From the NCBI GenBank assembly GCA_039803545.1, contig JBDRYS010000001.1, positions 499,866 to 563,865 of the forward strand: a DNA stretch of 64,000 nt, given 5' to 3'. The translations under genes and the position numbers were made by a program. Shown piece after piece: positions 14,053 through 51,275 of the stretch. Numbering within the stretch: the stretch's first letter is position 1; the number at the start of each line of letters is the position of its first letter. The notes under the pieces are model-generated. The model was not told where the DNA came from and did not search any database. It saw only the letters and a program-made list of their open reading frames with translations. Source of the stretch: a candidate division WOR-3 bacterium. GTDB lineage: Bacteria; Hydrothermota; Hydrothermia; UBA1063.

Positions 14053-14997
14053 ATGCCAAACGAACGAAGGGAGATTATTTATGGTCTTCTTTTCCTGCTT
14101 CCTGCCCTTGTAATCCTTTTTATTTTTAAGGTTCTGCCTATCCTCTTTGCCTTTAACATCTCTTTCCACGAATGGGGAATCGCAGGGGATAAGGGGTTTG
14201 TTGGCCTCCAGAACTACAAGTTTTTACTCCGGGATAGGTACTTTTGGCAAGCTTTGTGGAACACCGTCTTATATACCATATTTTCCGTTCCCCTTAGCAT
14301 TGTACTTGCCCTCTTTATCGCCTATCTCCTTAACCAAAATATAAAAGGCGTTGGACTCTTCCGAACGGTATTCTTCTTACCAGTTATTACATCTTTGGTC
14401 GCTGTTTCTGTGGTGTGGAAATGGTTATACAATCCCCAGAGGGGCCTTTTTAACGCTATCCTTGCCTTCTTAAAACTTCCAACCCTAAAATGGCTTGAAG
14501 AACCACGAGGGATCTTTGAACTTTTAACGGGAAAAGACTTGCCTTATCTTCTTGAAGGGCCTTCCCTGGCTTTATTCTCTCTCGTTATTTTAAGCGTATG
14601 GAAATCCCTTGGTTACAATATAGTGATTTTTATCGCGGGTCTCAAAAATATTTCGGAAACTTATTATGAAGCTGCAAGGATTGATGGGGCGAATAGATGG
14701 CAGATAATAAAGCACGTGATGTTGCCCCTTCTCTCTCCCACGACCTTTTATGTGTTTATAATGACTACCATTTCTTCTTTTCAGGTGTTTGCCCCTGTGT
14801 GGATGATGACGGGGCCTCCAACGGGAGGTCCTCTTGGTACAACATCAGTAGTGGTTTACTACCTTTATAGAAAGGGATATGAAGAGTACCAGGTTGGATA
14901 CGGTTCTGCAATTGCCTTCGTTTTCTTCGTAATTATACTTTTAATAACTCTCTTCCAGCGTAAAGTGAGCGAAAAGAGGGTCTATTATGAAGTTTAG
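14053..14997 (+). CDS. Carbohydrate ABC transporter permease, MalF/UgpA-like
   Basis: Inner-membrane permease of a binding-protein-dependent sugar importer, CUT1 family. It has 314 residues with six membrane helices, starting with GLLFLLPALVILFIFKVLPI, and the EAA loop EAARIDGANRWQIIKHVMLPLLSP that docks on the ATPase. It overlaps the second permease by 11 bases. No solute-binding protein or MsmX-type ATPase is encoded within the flanking genes, so the substrate cannot be told and the rest of the transporter must be elsewhere. The start is set by the leaderless promoter at 14018-14046. Confidence 0.92.
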   Translation: MPNERREIIYGLLFLLPALVILFIFKVLPILFAFNISFHEWGIAGDKGFVGLQNYKFLLRDRYFWQALWNTVLYTIFSVPLSIVLALFIAYLLNQNIKGVGLFRTVFFLPVITSLVAVSVVWKWLYNPQRGLFNAILAFLKLPTLKWLEEPRGIFELLTGKDLPYLLEGPSLALFSLVILSVWKSLGYNIVIFIAGLKNISETYYEAARIDGANRWQIIKHVMLPLLSPTTFYVFIMTTISSFQVFAPVWMMTGPPTGGPLGTTSVVVYYLYRKGYEEYQVGYGSAIAFVFFVIILLITLFQRKVSEKRVYYEV

Positions 14998-15817
14998 AAG
15001 TGTCATAATCTGGAAAATCATTGTCTATTCAATCCTCATTGCCCTTGCTATACTTTCTATATTGCCATTTTATTGGATGCTAACAACCTCCTTTAAGACG
15101 CCTGCGGAATCCATTGCCGTTCCTCCTACATGGATTCCAAAAACCTTCACCCTCTTAGGCTATAAAACCGTCCTTACTAAAATTCACTTTCTCAGGTACA
15201 TGTATATCTCCCTTATCACCTCTATTCTCACCATCCTTGGCTCTCTTATAACGGCGCTTCTTGCCGCCTATGCCTTTTCCTGGATTCAGTTTAAGGGTAG
15301 AGATACTATTTTTATGGGCTTCTTATCTCTAATGATGGTGCCGATGCCGGTTTACATTATACCGCTCTTTCTCATAGTACAGAGACTTGGCTGGCTCGAT
15401 ACCCTGCAGGTTATGATAGTCCCCTGGACAGTAAGTATCTTTAGCATTTTCTTACTCAGGCAGAATATGCGCTCCATTCCCAAGGATTTATACGATGCAG
15501 CGGTCATTGATGGGTGCGGTAGACTGAGATTTCTGTTTCAAATAATTGTTCCTCTTATTAAACCTGCTATAACCACGATGGTCATCTTCGAGTTCATTTC
15601 CAGCTGGAACACCTTTATGTGGCCCCTTATGGTTATAAACAAAGACAATCTGAGACCCATTCAGGTTGGGCTTGCATACTTTGCCCAGGGCGAATCCACA
15701 AACTACCCTGCCCTTATGGCAGCTTCAACCCTTTCCATTCTGCCTCTTGTGATTTTATTCTTCATTGCCCAAAAACAGATAATCGAAAGTTATGCCAGAA
15801 GCGGTCTAAAAGAATAG
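14987..15817 (+). CDS. Carbohydrate ABC transporter permease, MalG/UgpE-like
   Basis: Second permease of the CUT1 sugar importer: 276 residues, six helices, EAA loop DAAVIDGCGRLRFLFQIIVPLIKP. The N-terminal SILPFYWMLTTSFKTPAE is typical of MalG proteins. It starts inside the MalF-like gene and ends 3 bases before the RNA ligase gene, so the three lie in one operon. Expected to pair with the previous product as the two membrane halves. Confidence 0.92.
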   Translation: MKFRSVIIWKIIVYSILIALAILSILPFYWMLTTSFKTPAESIAVPPTWIPKTFTLLGYKTVLTKIHFLRYMYISLITSILTILGSLITALLAAYAFSWIQFKGRDTIFMGFLSLMMVPMPVYIIPLFLIVQRLGWLDTLQVMIVPWTVSIFSIFLLRQNMRSIPKDLYDAAVIDGCGRLRFLFQIIVPLIKPAITTMVIFEFISSWNTFMWPLMVINKDNLRPIQVGLAYFAQGESTNYPALMAASTLSILPLVILFFIAQKQIIESYARSGLKE

Positions 15818-15820
15818 CTC

Positions 15821-16912
15821 ATGCAAGAAGCGGTCAAGCAAGCCCTTGACTTGAAAAAGGCCGTCTACGAAACCTATCGAGATATTCAATATATTCGTTT
15901 CGTTGATGACTCGAAAATCTTTAAGCGGGGCACTATAGTAATTGGGGACACAATTATTCCTCCTTACCCTAAAATTGGGCGTCTTTTTGTTTTAGAAGAA
16001 GGTCTTAAGCGTTTTTTCAAAGAGCCCTTCTACATAGAGGAAAAGGCCGATGGTTACAATATAAGGGTAATATATTACAAAGAGAGGCCTCTTGCCATTA
16101 CCCGAGGAGGCTTCATCTGTCCCTTTAGTACTGACAGACTTAAAGATTTTTATGACTTCAATGAATTTTTTAGAAAATACCCAGAACTTGTCCTCTGTGG
16201 AGAAATCGTAGGCCCCAATAACCCTTATATGGAATTGCATCCACCCTACATCACCTTTGACGTTGCCTTTAGGCTATTTGACATCTATGATTTGAAAGAA
16301 AATAGGTTTTTACTACCTGAAGAGCGTTATAAAATTGCTGATACCTTTCAGATACCACAGGTTACCAGGTACGGACTTTACACAACCGGGGATATTGAAA
16401 GGATCAAGGAACTTATATTAAAACTCAACGCTGAAGAGATTGAGGGAGTTGTAATCAAGTCCGCCCAAAGGCATTTAAGATATTTCAAGTACGCCACCCC
16501 CATTATCAACATTAAGGACATTGAAGCCGATGTAGATTTACTCCTTGAACTCCCCGGTGAATTTTTTATTCAAAGAATCATAAGGTTTGCCCTCTCATCC
16601 CTTGAACTTGGTTACGATGGAAAAGAAATGGCTAATAGATTGGGTGAAATTTTCATTGAAAACTTCAAGAAGATTGTACAGGAATTTAAAGAGTCAGGTA
16701 AAATATCGCGCCAATACGTGCTCTATTTCAATGAAGAGGAAAACATTGAGGAATTTTTGAAACTGGAAAACAGGGCCTCGGACTTGATTAAAGTAAAACT
16801 CATTGGAGTCGAAAGGGAACAAAACAAATACAAAGTTACCATCGAGAAAACCTTCCTTAAAGCAACCTCACGGCTTTACAGGCTTATCAGAGGTTATCCT
16901 CTTTACGATTAG
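15821..16912 (+). CDS. ATP-dependent RNA ligase, Rnl3 (Pab1020) family
   Basis: Joins or circularises RNA ends with ATP through a lysine-AMP intermediate. The nucleotidyltransferase motif I is EEKADGYN with the expected nucleophile K75. Further motifs are FICPFSTDR, the CGEIVGPNNPY stretch (motif III region), EGVVIKSA (motif IV) and an RYFKYATP segment (motif V). At 363 residues with a helical C-terminal domain it fits the archaeal-type Rnl3 enzymes known from Pyrococcus and Methanothermobacter. It starts 3 bases after the MalG-like gene and its tail overlaps the convergent partner gene by 26 bases. Rare in bacteria; horizontal origin from archaea is possible but not shown. Confidence 0.88.
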   Translation: MQEAVKQALDLKKAVYETYRDIQYIRFVDDSKIFKRGTIVIGDTIIPPYPKIGRLFVLEEGLKRFFKEPFYIEEKADGYNIRVIYYKERPLAITRGGFICPFSTDRLKDFYDFNEFFRKYPELVLCGEIVGPNNPYMELHPPYITFDVAFRLFDIYDLKENRFLLPEERYKIADTFQIPQVTRYGLYTTGDIERIKELILKLNAEEIEGVVIKSAQRHLRYFKYATPIINIKDIEADVDLLLELPGEFFIQRIIRFALSSLELGYDGKEMANRLGEIFIENFKKIVQEFKESGKISRQYVLYFNEEENIEEFLKLENRASDLIKVKLIGVEREQNKYKVTIEKTFLKATSRLYRLIRGYPLYD

Positions 16913-17471
16913 AGAGAAGTACTGAAATTAACGCCTTTGGGTTGATATATCTTACTCCGAGCTTTTCTGCCCACTTTCTTACACCCTCATCGGCAGAGAC
17001 AATGGCAGCACCAAGTTCCATAGCGAGAAGAATCAAATCTACATCCTCCGTTGAATCTATAATGCCACTTCTTAGTGCCTCACGATACTTGTTCCTTAAA
17101 CGATTGATGATCTTTTCCTTACTCTGTTTCTCGGCAACCTGAACCGCTTCTTCAGCAACCCTTAAACCCTTATTAATTCGGTTTCTGACCTCTTCAATTA
17201 GCTCATAAAGGAGGAATCCGGGGACCTCAATATTGAACCTTTTAGGGGATTTCAATTTTATAGTCAGGTCCGCTTCAGGGGGTATACTATCTTCTCCCAG
17301 AATGAGATTCAACTCCTCAAACACCGAAGGAGGCATATAAAATTCAAATTCATTCTTAAAGCTCTTTGCGAGTTCTAAAAAATTCCTGAAGGCATCCTTT
17401 GCGCTTTTACCAAAGAGGCTGTAAACATCAGGATTTGTAAATACACTGGTGTCAATAACGATTTTTTCCAT
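16887..17471 (-). CDS. RNA ligase partner protein, PIN-domain family
   Basis: A 194-residue PIN-fold protein of the family named RNA ligase partner because it accompanies Rnl3 genes. Acidic residues expected for a PIN metal site are present: D7 in VIDTSVF, E48 in PSVFEELN, D141-D143 in STEDVDLILLA and D159 in VSADEGVRKWA. It probably cleaves or binds RNA and may create or process the ligase substrate. It is convergent with and overlaps the ligase gene, and lies 20 bases behind sppA, with which it may be co-transcribed. Family recognition is firm; biochemical role is not known. Confidence 0.87.
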   Translation of the reverse strand: MEKIVIDTSVFTNPDVYSLFGKSAKDAFRNFLELAKSFKNEFEFYMPPSVFEELNLILGEDSIPPEADLTIKLKSPKRFNIEVPGFLLYELIEEVRNRINKGLRVAEEAVQVAEKQSKEKIINRLRNKYREALRSGIIDSTEDVDLILLAMELGAAIVSADEGVRKWAEKLGVRYINPKALISVLLSNRKEDNL

Positions 17472-17491: not shown

Positions 17492-19657
17492 CTATCTTAC
17501 AATCAAAGGTTTTGTAAACTCAATGTAAGATGGTCCCTCTAACAGCATATCCAAAACCGTTGTTTGAGGCATCAGATTAGCAAAGGGCAAGGAAGGCTTG
17601 CGAGTCGGGTAATAGATAACTTTAACGTCCTCACATTTTATAAGAACTTTAGAAAGTTTTATCGCATCCAAAATTCCACCATTCTCATCAACAATTCCAA
17701 TCCTTTTTGCATCTCTTCCACTCCATATCCTACCCCTTCCAATTTTGTCAACGCTATCCGGATCAAGCCCCCTACCCTCCTGGATTCTCTTCAGGAATTT
17801 CTGGTATGCCCATTGGATTTCTCTATTCATTATCTCTTCACCCTCAGGTCCGAGCTCTTCATAGGATGAAAAAGATAGGGCATATTTTCCAATTTTAACG
17901 GAATATAAATTTATTCCCAATTTGTTAAAGAGCCCCGTGGTCACAAATTTACCATTGAGAACGCCTATTGAACCCGTTAATGTCGTTTTAGAAGCAAGTA
18001 CCTTTGTTCCTGCTGAGGAGATGTAATATCCTCCCGATGCAGCAACAGAGCCCATTGTTACTATCACAGGTTTCTTTTTGGACACCTTTCTTATTGCATT
18101 CCACATAATATCGGAAGCGAGGGCAGAACCGCCGGGTGAATTTACCCTGAGAATTACGGCTTTTACTCTCCTGTCTTTTTCGAGCTTCGAAAAGGTTTTT
18201 TCAATTGTCGAAGAGCCGAGGTTTCTTCCGCCGATAAAAGGAAGTGGGAGTGGATTGTCACTACTCTCCCCCTCCACTATGCTCCCATCTGCCACTACAT
18301 AGGCAACTTTATACTTTGGTTCATACCAGGCTGTTCTCACGGGTTGCCAAGGATTTCTTAATCCTCGTACAATTTGAACCTTTTTTCCAAATTCTTTCCT
18401 TATAATGTCCTGAATATCGCTTTCAAAAATTAACGAATCAACATACTTCTTCTCTTTAGCCTTATCTGCGTTAATTACAGCGTATTCAAAAATGGAATCA
18501 ATCTCCGGGATGGCTTCCTTTGCATAGTCGTAGATTGTATTAAGATAAGCCATAAGCTGCTCTCTGTTATAAGAACTCATTGTGTCCATAATAAAGGGTT
18601 CCGCCGCCGACTTGTATTCACCAATTCTCTGGAACTCCGGCTTGATACCGAGCCTTTCTAAAGCGGTCTTGAAATACATACTAACTGTGCCCAAACCGGG
18701 TATAAAAATGTCGCCCGAAGGGTTTAGAAAGACCTTATCTCCAGCTCTTGCAAGAAGATATGAACCTAAGAAATAGTTTTCGGAGTAGGTATAAACTTTA
18801 ATTCCATTTTGCCTGAGTTTCGAAATGACATTCCTGAGTTCTTCGATCTGATTAATAGAAAGGGCAACATTGTCTAAAATTAGGAAAAGACCCTTTACCG
18901 ATTTATCTGAAGAAAGGGAATCAAGGGCAGTAACTAAATCAAAAAAGGACATTTTTCTTCTCATTGCGAAGGAACCCTCCGCCCTCATTTCATCATATTC
19001 CCCGCTCAGACGAACAATATGGACTTTTGGCATCTTCATGAGAGAAGGGTAAGGGTTGGCAGATATTATGGCACCATAAGTGGTTTTATTATCTTCCCGC
19101 GATCCAGAGAACACGAGGTTTCCAAGGCTTATTTCAACTCCAAAAGAAGGTTTTCCATCTTTAACAGTTGTTGCATATAAATTAATTCCGCTCACCGGCT
19201 CAAGCTCAATCCCGCCTTCGAAATGCTTGCCATTTGTAACATCAACATAGACCTTGACATATTCCTTGAAGGGTTTTATAGCAAGGCCAAATCTATTATT
19301 TTTATAGTTATTGTATGTATAGCCACAGGACAGAAAATCCGCGGGTCTTAAAAGTATTCCACCGTAATAACCGTATCCAGAGTCTTTTGCATATTTTAAG
19401 CCCAATCCTAAGTATACATTCTCCGCAAGTTTGATGCCGTCAGCCACATAATAGGAATTCGAACCTTTATCCCAGGAAAAACCAAGGGTTCCTGAATAGA
19501 GGTTTAAACGGTAATTATCTTTATTGCCAAAATAAGATAACTCAAAGCCCTGAGAGAAAGCAAGGCCCGCCGGATTAACTGTAGTTGCGAGACTCCGCTC
19601 AGAGAGAGCCACAGAATTTAAATTGAAAAAAGATGAAAGAATTAGAAAAAATAACAT
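17492..19657 (-). CDS. sppA: SppA-type S49 serine protease fused to an N-terminal barrel-like domain
   Basis: A signal peptide peptidase-like protease of 721 residues. After a signal sequence (MLFFLILSSFFNLNSVALS), residues 20-205 are rich in alternating aromatic beta strands with glycine turns (SYFGNKDNYRLNLYSG, YGYYGGILLRPADFLS), like an outer-membrane barrel or porin fragment. Two S49 domains follow. The catalytic lysine is in GEYKSAAEPF near residue 347 and the nucleophile serine in SVAASGGYY near 539, matching the two-domain 67-kDa class. A TATAAT lies on the minus strand about 35 bases before the AAAGGGAGG site, but without a good -35. The N-terminal part differs from E. coli SppA, which begins with a plain membrane anchor. 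Confidence 0.88.
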   Translation of the reverse strand: MLFFLILSSFFNLNSVALSERSLATTVNPAGLAFSQGFELSYFGNKDNYRLNLYSGTLGFSWDKGSNSYYVADGIKLAENVYLGLGLKYAKDSGYGYYGGILLRPADFLSCGYTYNNYKNNRFGLAIKPFKEYVKVYVDVTNGKHFEGGIELEPVSGINLYATTVKDGKPSFGVEISLGNLVFSGSREDNKTTYGAIISANPYPSLMKMPKVHIVRLSGEYDEMRAEGSFAMRRKMSFFDLVTALDSLSSDKSVKGLFLILDNVALSINQIEELRNVISKLRQNGIKVYTYSENYFLGSYLLARAGDKVFLNPSGDIFIPGLGTVSMYFKTALERLGIKPEFQRIGEYKSAAEPFIMDTMSSYNREQLMAYLNTIYDYAKEAIPEIDSIFEYAVINADKAKEKKYVDSLIFESDIQDIIRKEFGKKVQIVRGLRNPWQPVRTAWYEPKYKVAYVVADGSIVEGESSDNPLPLPFIGGRNLGSSTIEKTFSKLEKDRRVKAVILRVNSPGGSALASDIMWNAIRKVSKKKPVIVTMGSVAASGGYYISSAGTKVLASKTTLTGSIGVLNGKFVTTGLFNKLGINLYSVKIGKYALSFSSYEELGPEGEEIMNREIQWAYQKFLKRIQEGRGLDPDSVDKIGRGRIWSGRDAKRIGIVDENGGILDAIKLSKVLIKCEDVKVIYYPTRKPSLPFANLMPQTTVLDMLLEGPSYIEFTKPLIVR

Positions 19658-51176: not shown

Positions 51177-51189
51177 AATTAATTAAAAA

Positions 51190-51262
51190 AGCTGGCGGGC
51201 GGACTCGAACCGCCAACCTGCGCATTACGAATGCGCTGCTCTGCCGATTGAGCTACGCCAGC
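51190..51262 (-). tRNA. tRNA-Thr, anticodon CGU
   Basis: A full cloverleaf on the minus strand: acceptor stem GCTGGCG/CGCCAGC (7 bp), D arm GCTC...GAGC, anticodon stem GCGCA/TGCGC with loop TTCGTAA giving anticodon CGT (reads ACG), T arm GGCGG-TTCGAGT-CCGCC. The discriminator base is T. CCA is not encoded; T6 follows. An A6 on the 5' side pairs with this T6. Confidence 0.96.
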
Positions 51263-51275
51263 TTTTTTAGTATTT

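Follow-up and report, generated by a model that had tools for sequence, protein, structure and literature searches.

The co-occurrence and gene neighbourhood of HARP, the minimal protein-only RNase P family, and the RNA ligase Rnl3 were described by Seshadri and Gopalan (mBio 2025; PMC12153264), who found Rnl3 in 665 of 751 HARP genomes and, among bacteria, within 5 kb of HARP in 127 of 164 cases. The orientation of the two genes was given there as ‘typically bidirectional’, with 10 tandem cases, and divergent and convergent pairs were not separated. The main text of that study names bacterial orders other than the one considered here, and does not cross the presence of the ligase with that of an RNA-based RNase P. 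HARP-only members have been placed in Aquificae, Nitrospirae and unclassified bacteria, in a paper whose accessible part does not contain the word ‘ligase’ (PMC6380272). These two papers were the only ones on topic among the matches listed for the family names, and a literature search on RNase P and HARP together with WOR-3 and rnpB gave no paper with WOR-3 among the matches listed.

We analysed a 64,000-nucleotide stretch of DNA (the window) from a candidate division WOR-3 bacterium, in which a 363-aa Rnl3-type ATP-dependent RNA ligase is predicted at 15821..16912 on the (+) strand and a 194-aa HARP at 16887..17471 on the (−) strand. The two genes converge, and their 3′ ends share 26 bases (16887..16912) that code for the tail of HARP and for the C-terminus of the ligase, whose last residues are YD. 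Two ABC sugar permease genes on the (+) strand precede the ligase, the first (14053..14997) opening the run and the second (14987..15817) ending 3 bases upstream of the ligase, with which it is likely co-transcribed. On the (−) strand, a gene for an SppA-type signal peptide peptidase (17492..19657) lies 20 bases upstream of HARP, and these two are likewise probably co-transcribed. The initial annotation had described an Rnl3 ligase and a PIN-domain partner, convergent, behind different operons and sharing 26 bases, and each of these features is found at the positions given above. Its remark that Rnl3 is known mainly from archaea understates the record, as the bacterial pair has already been published in 164 bacterial genomes (PMC12153264). 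With the ligase less than 5 kb from HARP and on the opposite strand, the window pair belongs to this published kind, with which it shares the same two families, adjacency, opposite strands and coexistence with an RNA-based RNase P; its phylum is unnamed in the main text of that study, and where the published pairs are described only as bidirectional, the window genes converge and overlap at their stops. A single tRNA gene was found in the window, a tRNA-Thr (CGT) at 51189-51263 on the minus strand.

The predicted ligase scored 303.5 bits against TIGR01209 (curated cut-off 136.9), matched the Pfam families RNA_ligase and Lig_C (Lig_C 54 versus 25 bits), and aligned near full length to the solved proteins 3qwu and 2vug (Pab1020); the alignment to 5d1o (MthRnl) covers residues 35-354. 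It contains the nucleotidyltransferase motifs EEKADG, EGVVIK and KYATP, which we take to be motifs I, IV and V, with the nucleotidyl lysine K75 in the first of them. Residues K75, D77, G78, E208, G209, K213 and K223 were invariant in a 19-row alignment in which up to 2 gaps were allowed. Judged by its sequence, then, the window ligase is an Rnl3 RNA ligase, predicted to be of the ATP-dependent RNA-circularising type. It resembles the archaeal enzymes Pab1020 (2vug) and MthRnl (5d1o) in homology over most of its length, nucleotidyltransferase motifs and Lig_C; unlike them, it is not expected to have a C/D box substrate. A second, short ligase-like open frame (196 aa; G000:C4:36904-37341) scored below the TIGR01209 cut-off, and similar short sub-cut-off frames were seen in G002 and G003.

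The partner scored 210.6 bits against TIGR03875, ‘RNA ligase partner’ (curated cut-off 95.3), and also matched PIN_5. RNA-free ribonuclease P is the name carried by each of its seven best solved homologues (best E 4.7e-57), and on this homology we identify it as HARP, which the initial annotation had missed. It aligns near full length to the Aquifex aeolicus HARP, Aq880, and to 7e8k, 8kd9, 8ssf, 7f3e and 7og5, with which it shares the catalytic aspartates. Four aspartates, D7, D138, D142 and D161, are reported as indispensable in Aq880 in the accessible part of PMC8266387, and these correspond to D7, D139, D143 and D161 of the window protein. In a 31-row HARP alignment, D7 was conserved in all 26 rows that reach the position and D139, D143 and D161 in 31/31, so that the PIN acid residues, whose absence had been set beforehand as grounds for discarding the pairing, are all present. 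In its own cell Aq880 is the only RNase P, whereas the window genome retains the RNA-based enzyme. As a separate observation, in both genomes of genus g9 (G014, L106:7600-8500; G039, L108:2900-3800) a run of nine A residues marks the point where the HARP reading frame changes; neither stretch has another such run, and HARP is the sole RNase P found in either genome. Slippage during transcription or a programmed shift may be involved.

We compared the arrangement of the two genes across genomes. HARP scored over the cut-off in 26 of 390 bacterial genomes from the phylum and beyond, 23 of them within the phylum. In the window’s order, all eight HARP-bearing genomes (families f1 and f2) carry the pair convergent and overlapping, by 26 bases in G000 and G002, 29 in G001 and G003, 4 in G004, G005 and G006, and 10 in G008, with the G003 ligase and the G004 HARP split by contig ends. 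Profile searches found neither gene in G007, a genome of the same order. Outside the phylum, the pairs of G287 and G314 are also convergent (overlaps of 27 and 18 bases), and no ligase was found within about 9.5 kb on either side of the HARP of G270. Adjacent bacterial pairs were thus convergent with overlapping stops in 10/10 cases, from four families, two of them outside the phylum, in a count that leaves out Aquificota and Gammaproteobacteria; the remaining six phylum genomes with both genes (f5, f7 and f11) carry them on separate contigs, and no abutting copies were seen. Neither protein matched in 50,697 phage records, and among 72,556 plasmid records we found five with HARP and two with the ligase, all haloarchaeal. 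The two haloarchaeal plasmid pairs are divergent, and in the three further plasmids the annotation places no ligase within 5-6 kb of HARP.

The expectation that the two genes are conserved together was borne out, the pair being adjacent in 8/8 genomes of the order and 2/2 outside the phylum. The genes upstream are a sugar permease and sppA in f1, and a TPR protein and an unknown in f2; because they differ between the families, the pair outlives its operons. The proposal of two separate regulation routes fits the gene order of the window, yet the pair is kept from one family to the next with other genes in front of it. For the bacteria sampled, the tail-to-tail, overlapping architecture across families is new here and narrows the earlier ‘bidirectional’.

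We then considered HARP against the RNA-based enzyme. The window’s genome contains both RNase P RNA (E 4e-91) and RnpA (1.7e-11), so HARP is not its housekeeping RNase P, and we rejected the idea that HARP is the main or sole RNase P here. Searches of 147 phylum genomes placed HARP over the cut-off in 23 and the ligase over the cut-off in 15, and detected RnpA in 128 and RNase P RNA in 121; all of the ligase-bearing genomes except G037 also carry HARP. Each of the 14 genomes with both HARP and the ligase retains RNase P RNA or RnpA (RnpA only in G004, RNA only in G011 and G013). By contrast, both were absent from all nine phylum genomes with HARP and no ligase (G009, G014, G022 and G039 of f3; G045 and G143-G146 of f17). 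The lists were crossed by hand, and the missing RNA of the five f17 genomes was first placed by elimination; when all nine were re-searched by name for RNase P RNA with looser filters, the best E was 0.69. Of the 124 phylum genomes without HARP, only G136, which is 61% complete, has neither the RNA nor RnpA. The association of the ligase with retention of the RNA-based RNase P gave a Fisher p of 1.2e-6 at the level of genomes, which are non-independent, and at the level of families 0.048 within the phylum, or 0.008 once the three outside genomes are added, a split resting on 2 or 3 ligase-free versus 5 or 7 ligase-bearing families; an independent-pairs test on the HARP tree yielded 1-2 pairs and had no power. 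In three genomes of genus g5, the RnpA matches each contain one in-frame TGA (G010:C1:58783-59073, G015:C3:186366-186650 and G023:C30:20895-21185), which may reflect recoding, selenocysteine or an alignment artefact.

The three genomes outside the phylum fit the same split, as judged by RNase P RNA in G287 and G314 and by the RNA together with the rnpA locus in G270. RNase P RNA was present in the paired G287 and G314 (E below 1e-97) and absent on searching from G270, whose HARP has no ligase nearby. In G270 (L130:4380-10140), rpmH, yidD and yidC are present and the interval between rpmH and yidD lacks rnpA; because the stretch is continuous, this looks like gene loss and not an assembly gap. 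At its other end the block carries HARP, tail-to-tail with mnmE and 2 bases from it. Here rpmH, yidD and the order rpmH-rnpA-yidD-yidC-mnmE were recognised by eye against the block of the window genome (L116). Two exceptions of opposite kinds lie beyond this sample. Aquifex has HARP and Rnl3 (3qwu) and is not known to have the RNA-based enzyme. Haloferax volcanii, used as a control, has HARP and no TIGR01209 match, and PMC12153264 credits it with an RNA-based RNase P; that enzyme is therefore not lost in every genome whose HARP lacks a ligase. Since both break the split, we regard it as a pattern of the sampled bacteria and not a law; this ligase-dependent split in RNase P retention is likewise new here. 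That the ligase is kept, in the bacteria sampled, only beside the RNA-based enzyme suggests that the pair does a job different from that of a tRNA-trimming RNase P.

What this job might be is indicated by the chemistry of the two enzymes. PIN nucleases such as HARP leave 5′-phosphate and 3′-hydroxyl ends. HARP, as a metal-dependent PIN endonuclease for tRNA-like folds, would cut RNA to leave these ends, and Rnl3 with ATP would seal exactly such ends, as 5′-phosphate to 3′-hydroxyl joining is described for Rnl3 in the accessible part of PMC5599603. Because the ends made by HARP would be the substrates of Rnl3, the two could act in turn without an end-healing step, and the outcome would be an RNA that is trimmed and circularised, or one from which a piece is excised and the rest rejoined. 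Bulk tRNA 5′ maturation would be done by the RNA-based RNase P, with no need of HARP, which makes an accessory module the best reading of the pair. We therefore favour, at even confidence, a ligase-paired HARP and Rnl3 that form an accessory cut-and-seal module for stable RNA and have no part in housekeeping RNase P activity. We infer that both act on the same RNA, a tRNA or another stable RNA. Loss of Rnl3 in Thermococcus kodakarensis also leaves aberrant rRNA fragments, according to the accessible part of PMC9014305, and rRNA trimming or repair is for this reason possible as well. Against the cut-and-seal reading stand the four recombinant bacterial HARPs that failed at pre-tRNA cleavage (PMC12153264) and the lack of true ThiI in the window’s order, as do the Haloferax and Aquifex exceptions and the small number of lineages behind the split.

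The genes next to HARP or the ligase, inspected after the fact, hint at stable RNA. thiI lies beside one or the other in five genomes in which the two genes are apart: it follows the ligase in 4/4 f11 genomes that have the ligase and adjoins HARP in G011, the only such case in f5, where the thiI of G016 is on another contig. A TudS-type gene precedes HARP in G031 (f11) and G004 (f1), and TudS recycles tRNA-derived 4-thio-UMP, as stated in the accessible part of PMC10611767. We considered 4-thiouridine as a common theme and kept it as a hint only, since the window’s order has no true ThiI (E below 1e-40). RNase P RNA, Rnl3 and thiI stand in series on the same strand in G035 (L104:7645-9153), the RNA ending 32 bases ahead of the ligase. 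In G314 (L132:10147-11758), the ligase is preceded on its own strand by a tmRNA, at a distance of about 155 bases, and the pair may occupy a tmRNA 3′ integration site. Separately, the ligase-free HARP of f17 (L109, L110 and L111) adjoins the tRNA t6A gene tsaE in G045, G143 and G144, the G143 copy having been assigned by clustering.

Alternatively, the two genes may render separate services under one stress, HARP as a backup RNase P and Rnl3 in the repair of heat-broken RNA, linked by a common need and by no shared pathway. This was the first hypothesis of the authors of PMC12153264, and it accords with the patchy distribution in extreme habitats and with the HARP knock-outs that showed no phenotype in two archaea (PMC12153264). 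Independent genes, however, need no tail-to-tail order in four bacterial families, and a backup RNase P gives no reason for the ligase to track the RNA-based enzyme, so we consider this explanation unlikely.

That the overlap is itself a device, with read-through giving antisense or double-stranded 3′ ends that mutually tune both genes, strikes us as quite improbable. All 10 adjacent bacterial pairs overlap, and where terminator-like sites were looked for in or next to the overlap, none was listed. Yet other convergent pairs in the same loci overlap in 11/41 cases, and in 5/11 in the window’s order, and the overlap lengths of 4, 10, 18, 26, 27 and 29 bases differ in phase. The excess of 10/10 over 11/41 gave a Fisher p of 3e-5, with pairs that come from only four families and are non-independent. 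With 11 of the 41 background pairs overlapping too, the overlap is by itself weakly remarkable; it is also the whole of the evidence for the double-stranded RNA or antisense ends proposed in the initial annotation, and such overlaps are common in these genomes.

Very improbable, in our assessment, is a toxin-antitoxin system in which HARP, as a VapC-like toxin, would cut tRNA and Rnl3 would reverse the damage by ligation, an idea proposed in PMC12153264 and in keeping with HARP being a PIN_5 protein. A type II system consists of two small co-directional genes in one operon; the window genes are convergent, with different upstream genes and no shared promoter. HARP moreover persists without the ligase in 9 genomes, which an untamed toxin would not allow, and T. 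kodakarensis without the ligase grows (PMC12153264). Maturation of C/D box RNAs, in which HARP would trim and Rnl3 circularise guide RNAs as proposed for archaea, is barely conceivable for bacterial pairs, as C/D box guide RNPs are not known outside archaea and eukaryotes. Its basis is the Rnl3 knock-out of T. kodakarensis, which represses C/D sRNA circles according to the accessible part of PMC9014305.

Returning to the cut-and-seal module, its relation to the ligase-free HARPs may be that of two states: bacterial HARP paired with Rnl3 beside an RNA-based RNase P, and, once the ligase is lost, HARP as the sole RNase P with rnpB and rnpA lost. We propose this tentatively, and within the phylum the switch to a sole-enzyme HARP may have occurred more than once. 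In the HARP tree (31 rows), the ligase-free rows need two changes, f3 branching within the paired rows, with a long stem (1.85), and f17 and G270 outside them; a single clade of ligase-free HARPs was neither shown nor rejected (AU p 0.235). The ligase tree (19 rows) joins f1 and f2 (100/98), with f11 next (92/92), and haloarchaea are the only archaea in either tree. At stake is what keeps a protein RNase P in cells that have the ribozyme, and why an RNA ligase accompanies it, a question that can be tested by comparing relatives because the phylum holds paired and sole-enzyme HARPs in one class. If the two-state reading is true, these bacteria would offer a natural before-and-after set for the replacement of a ribozyme by a protein.
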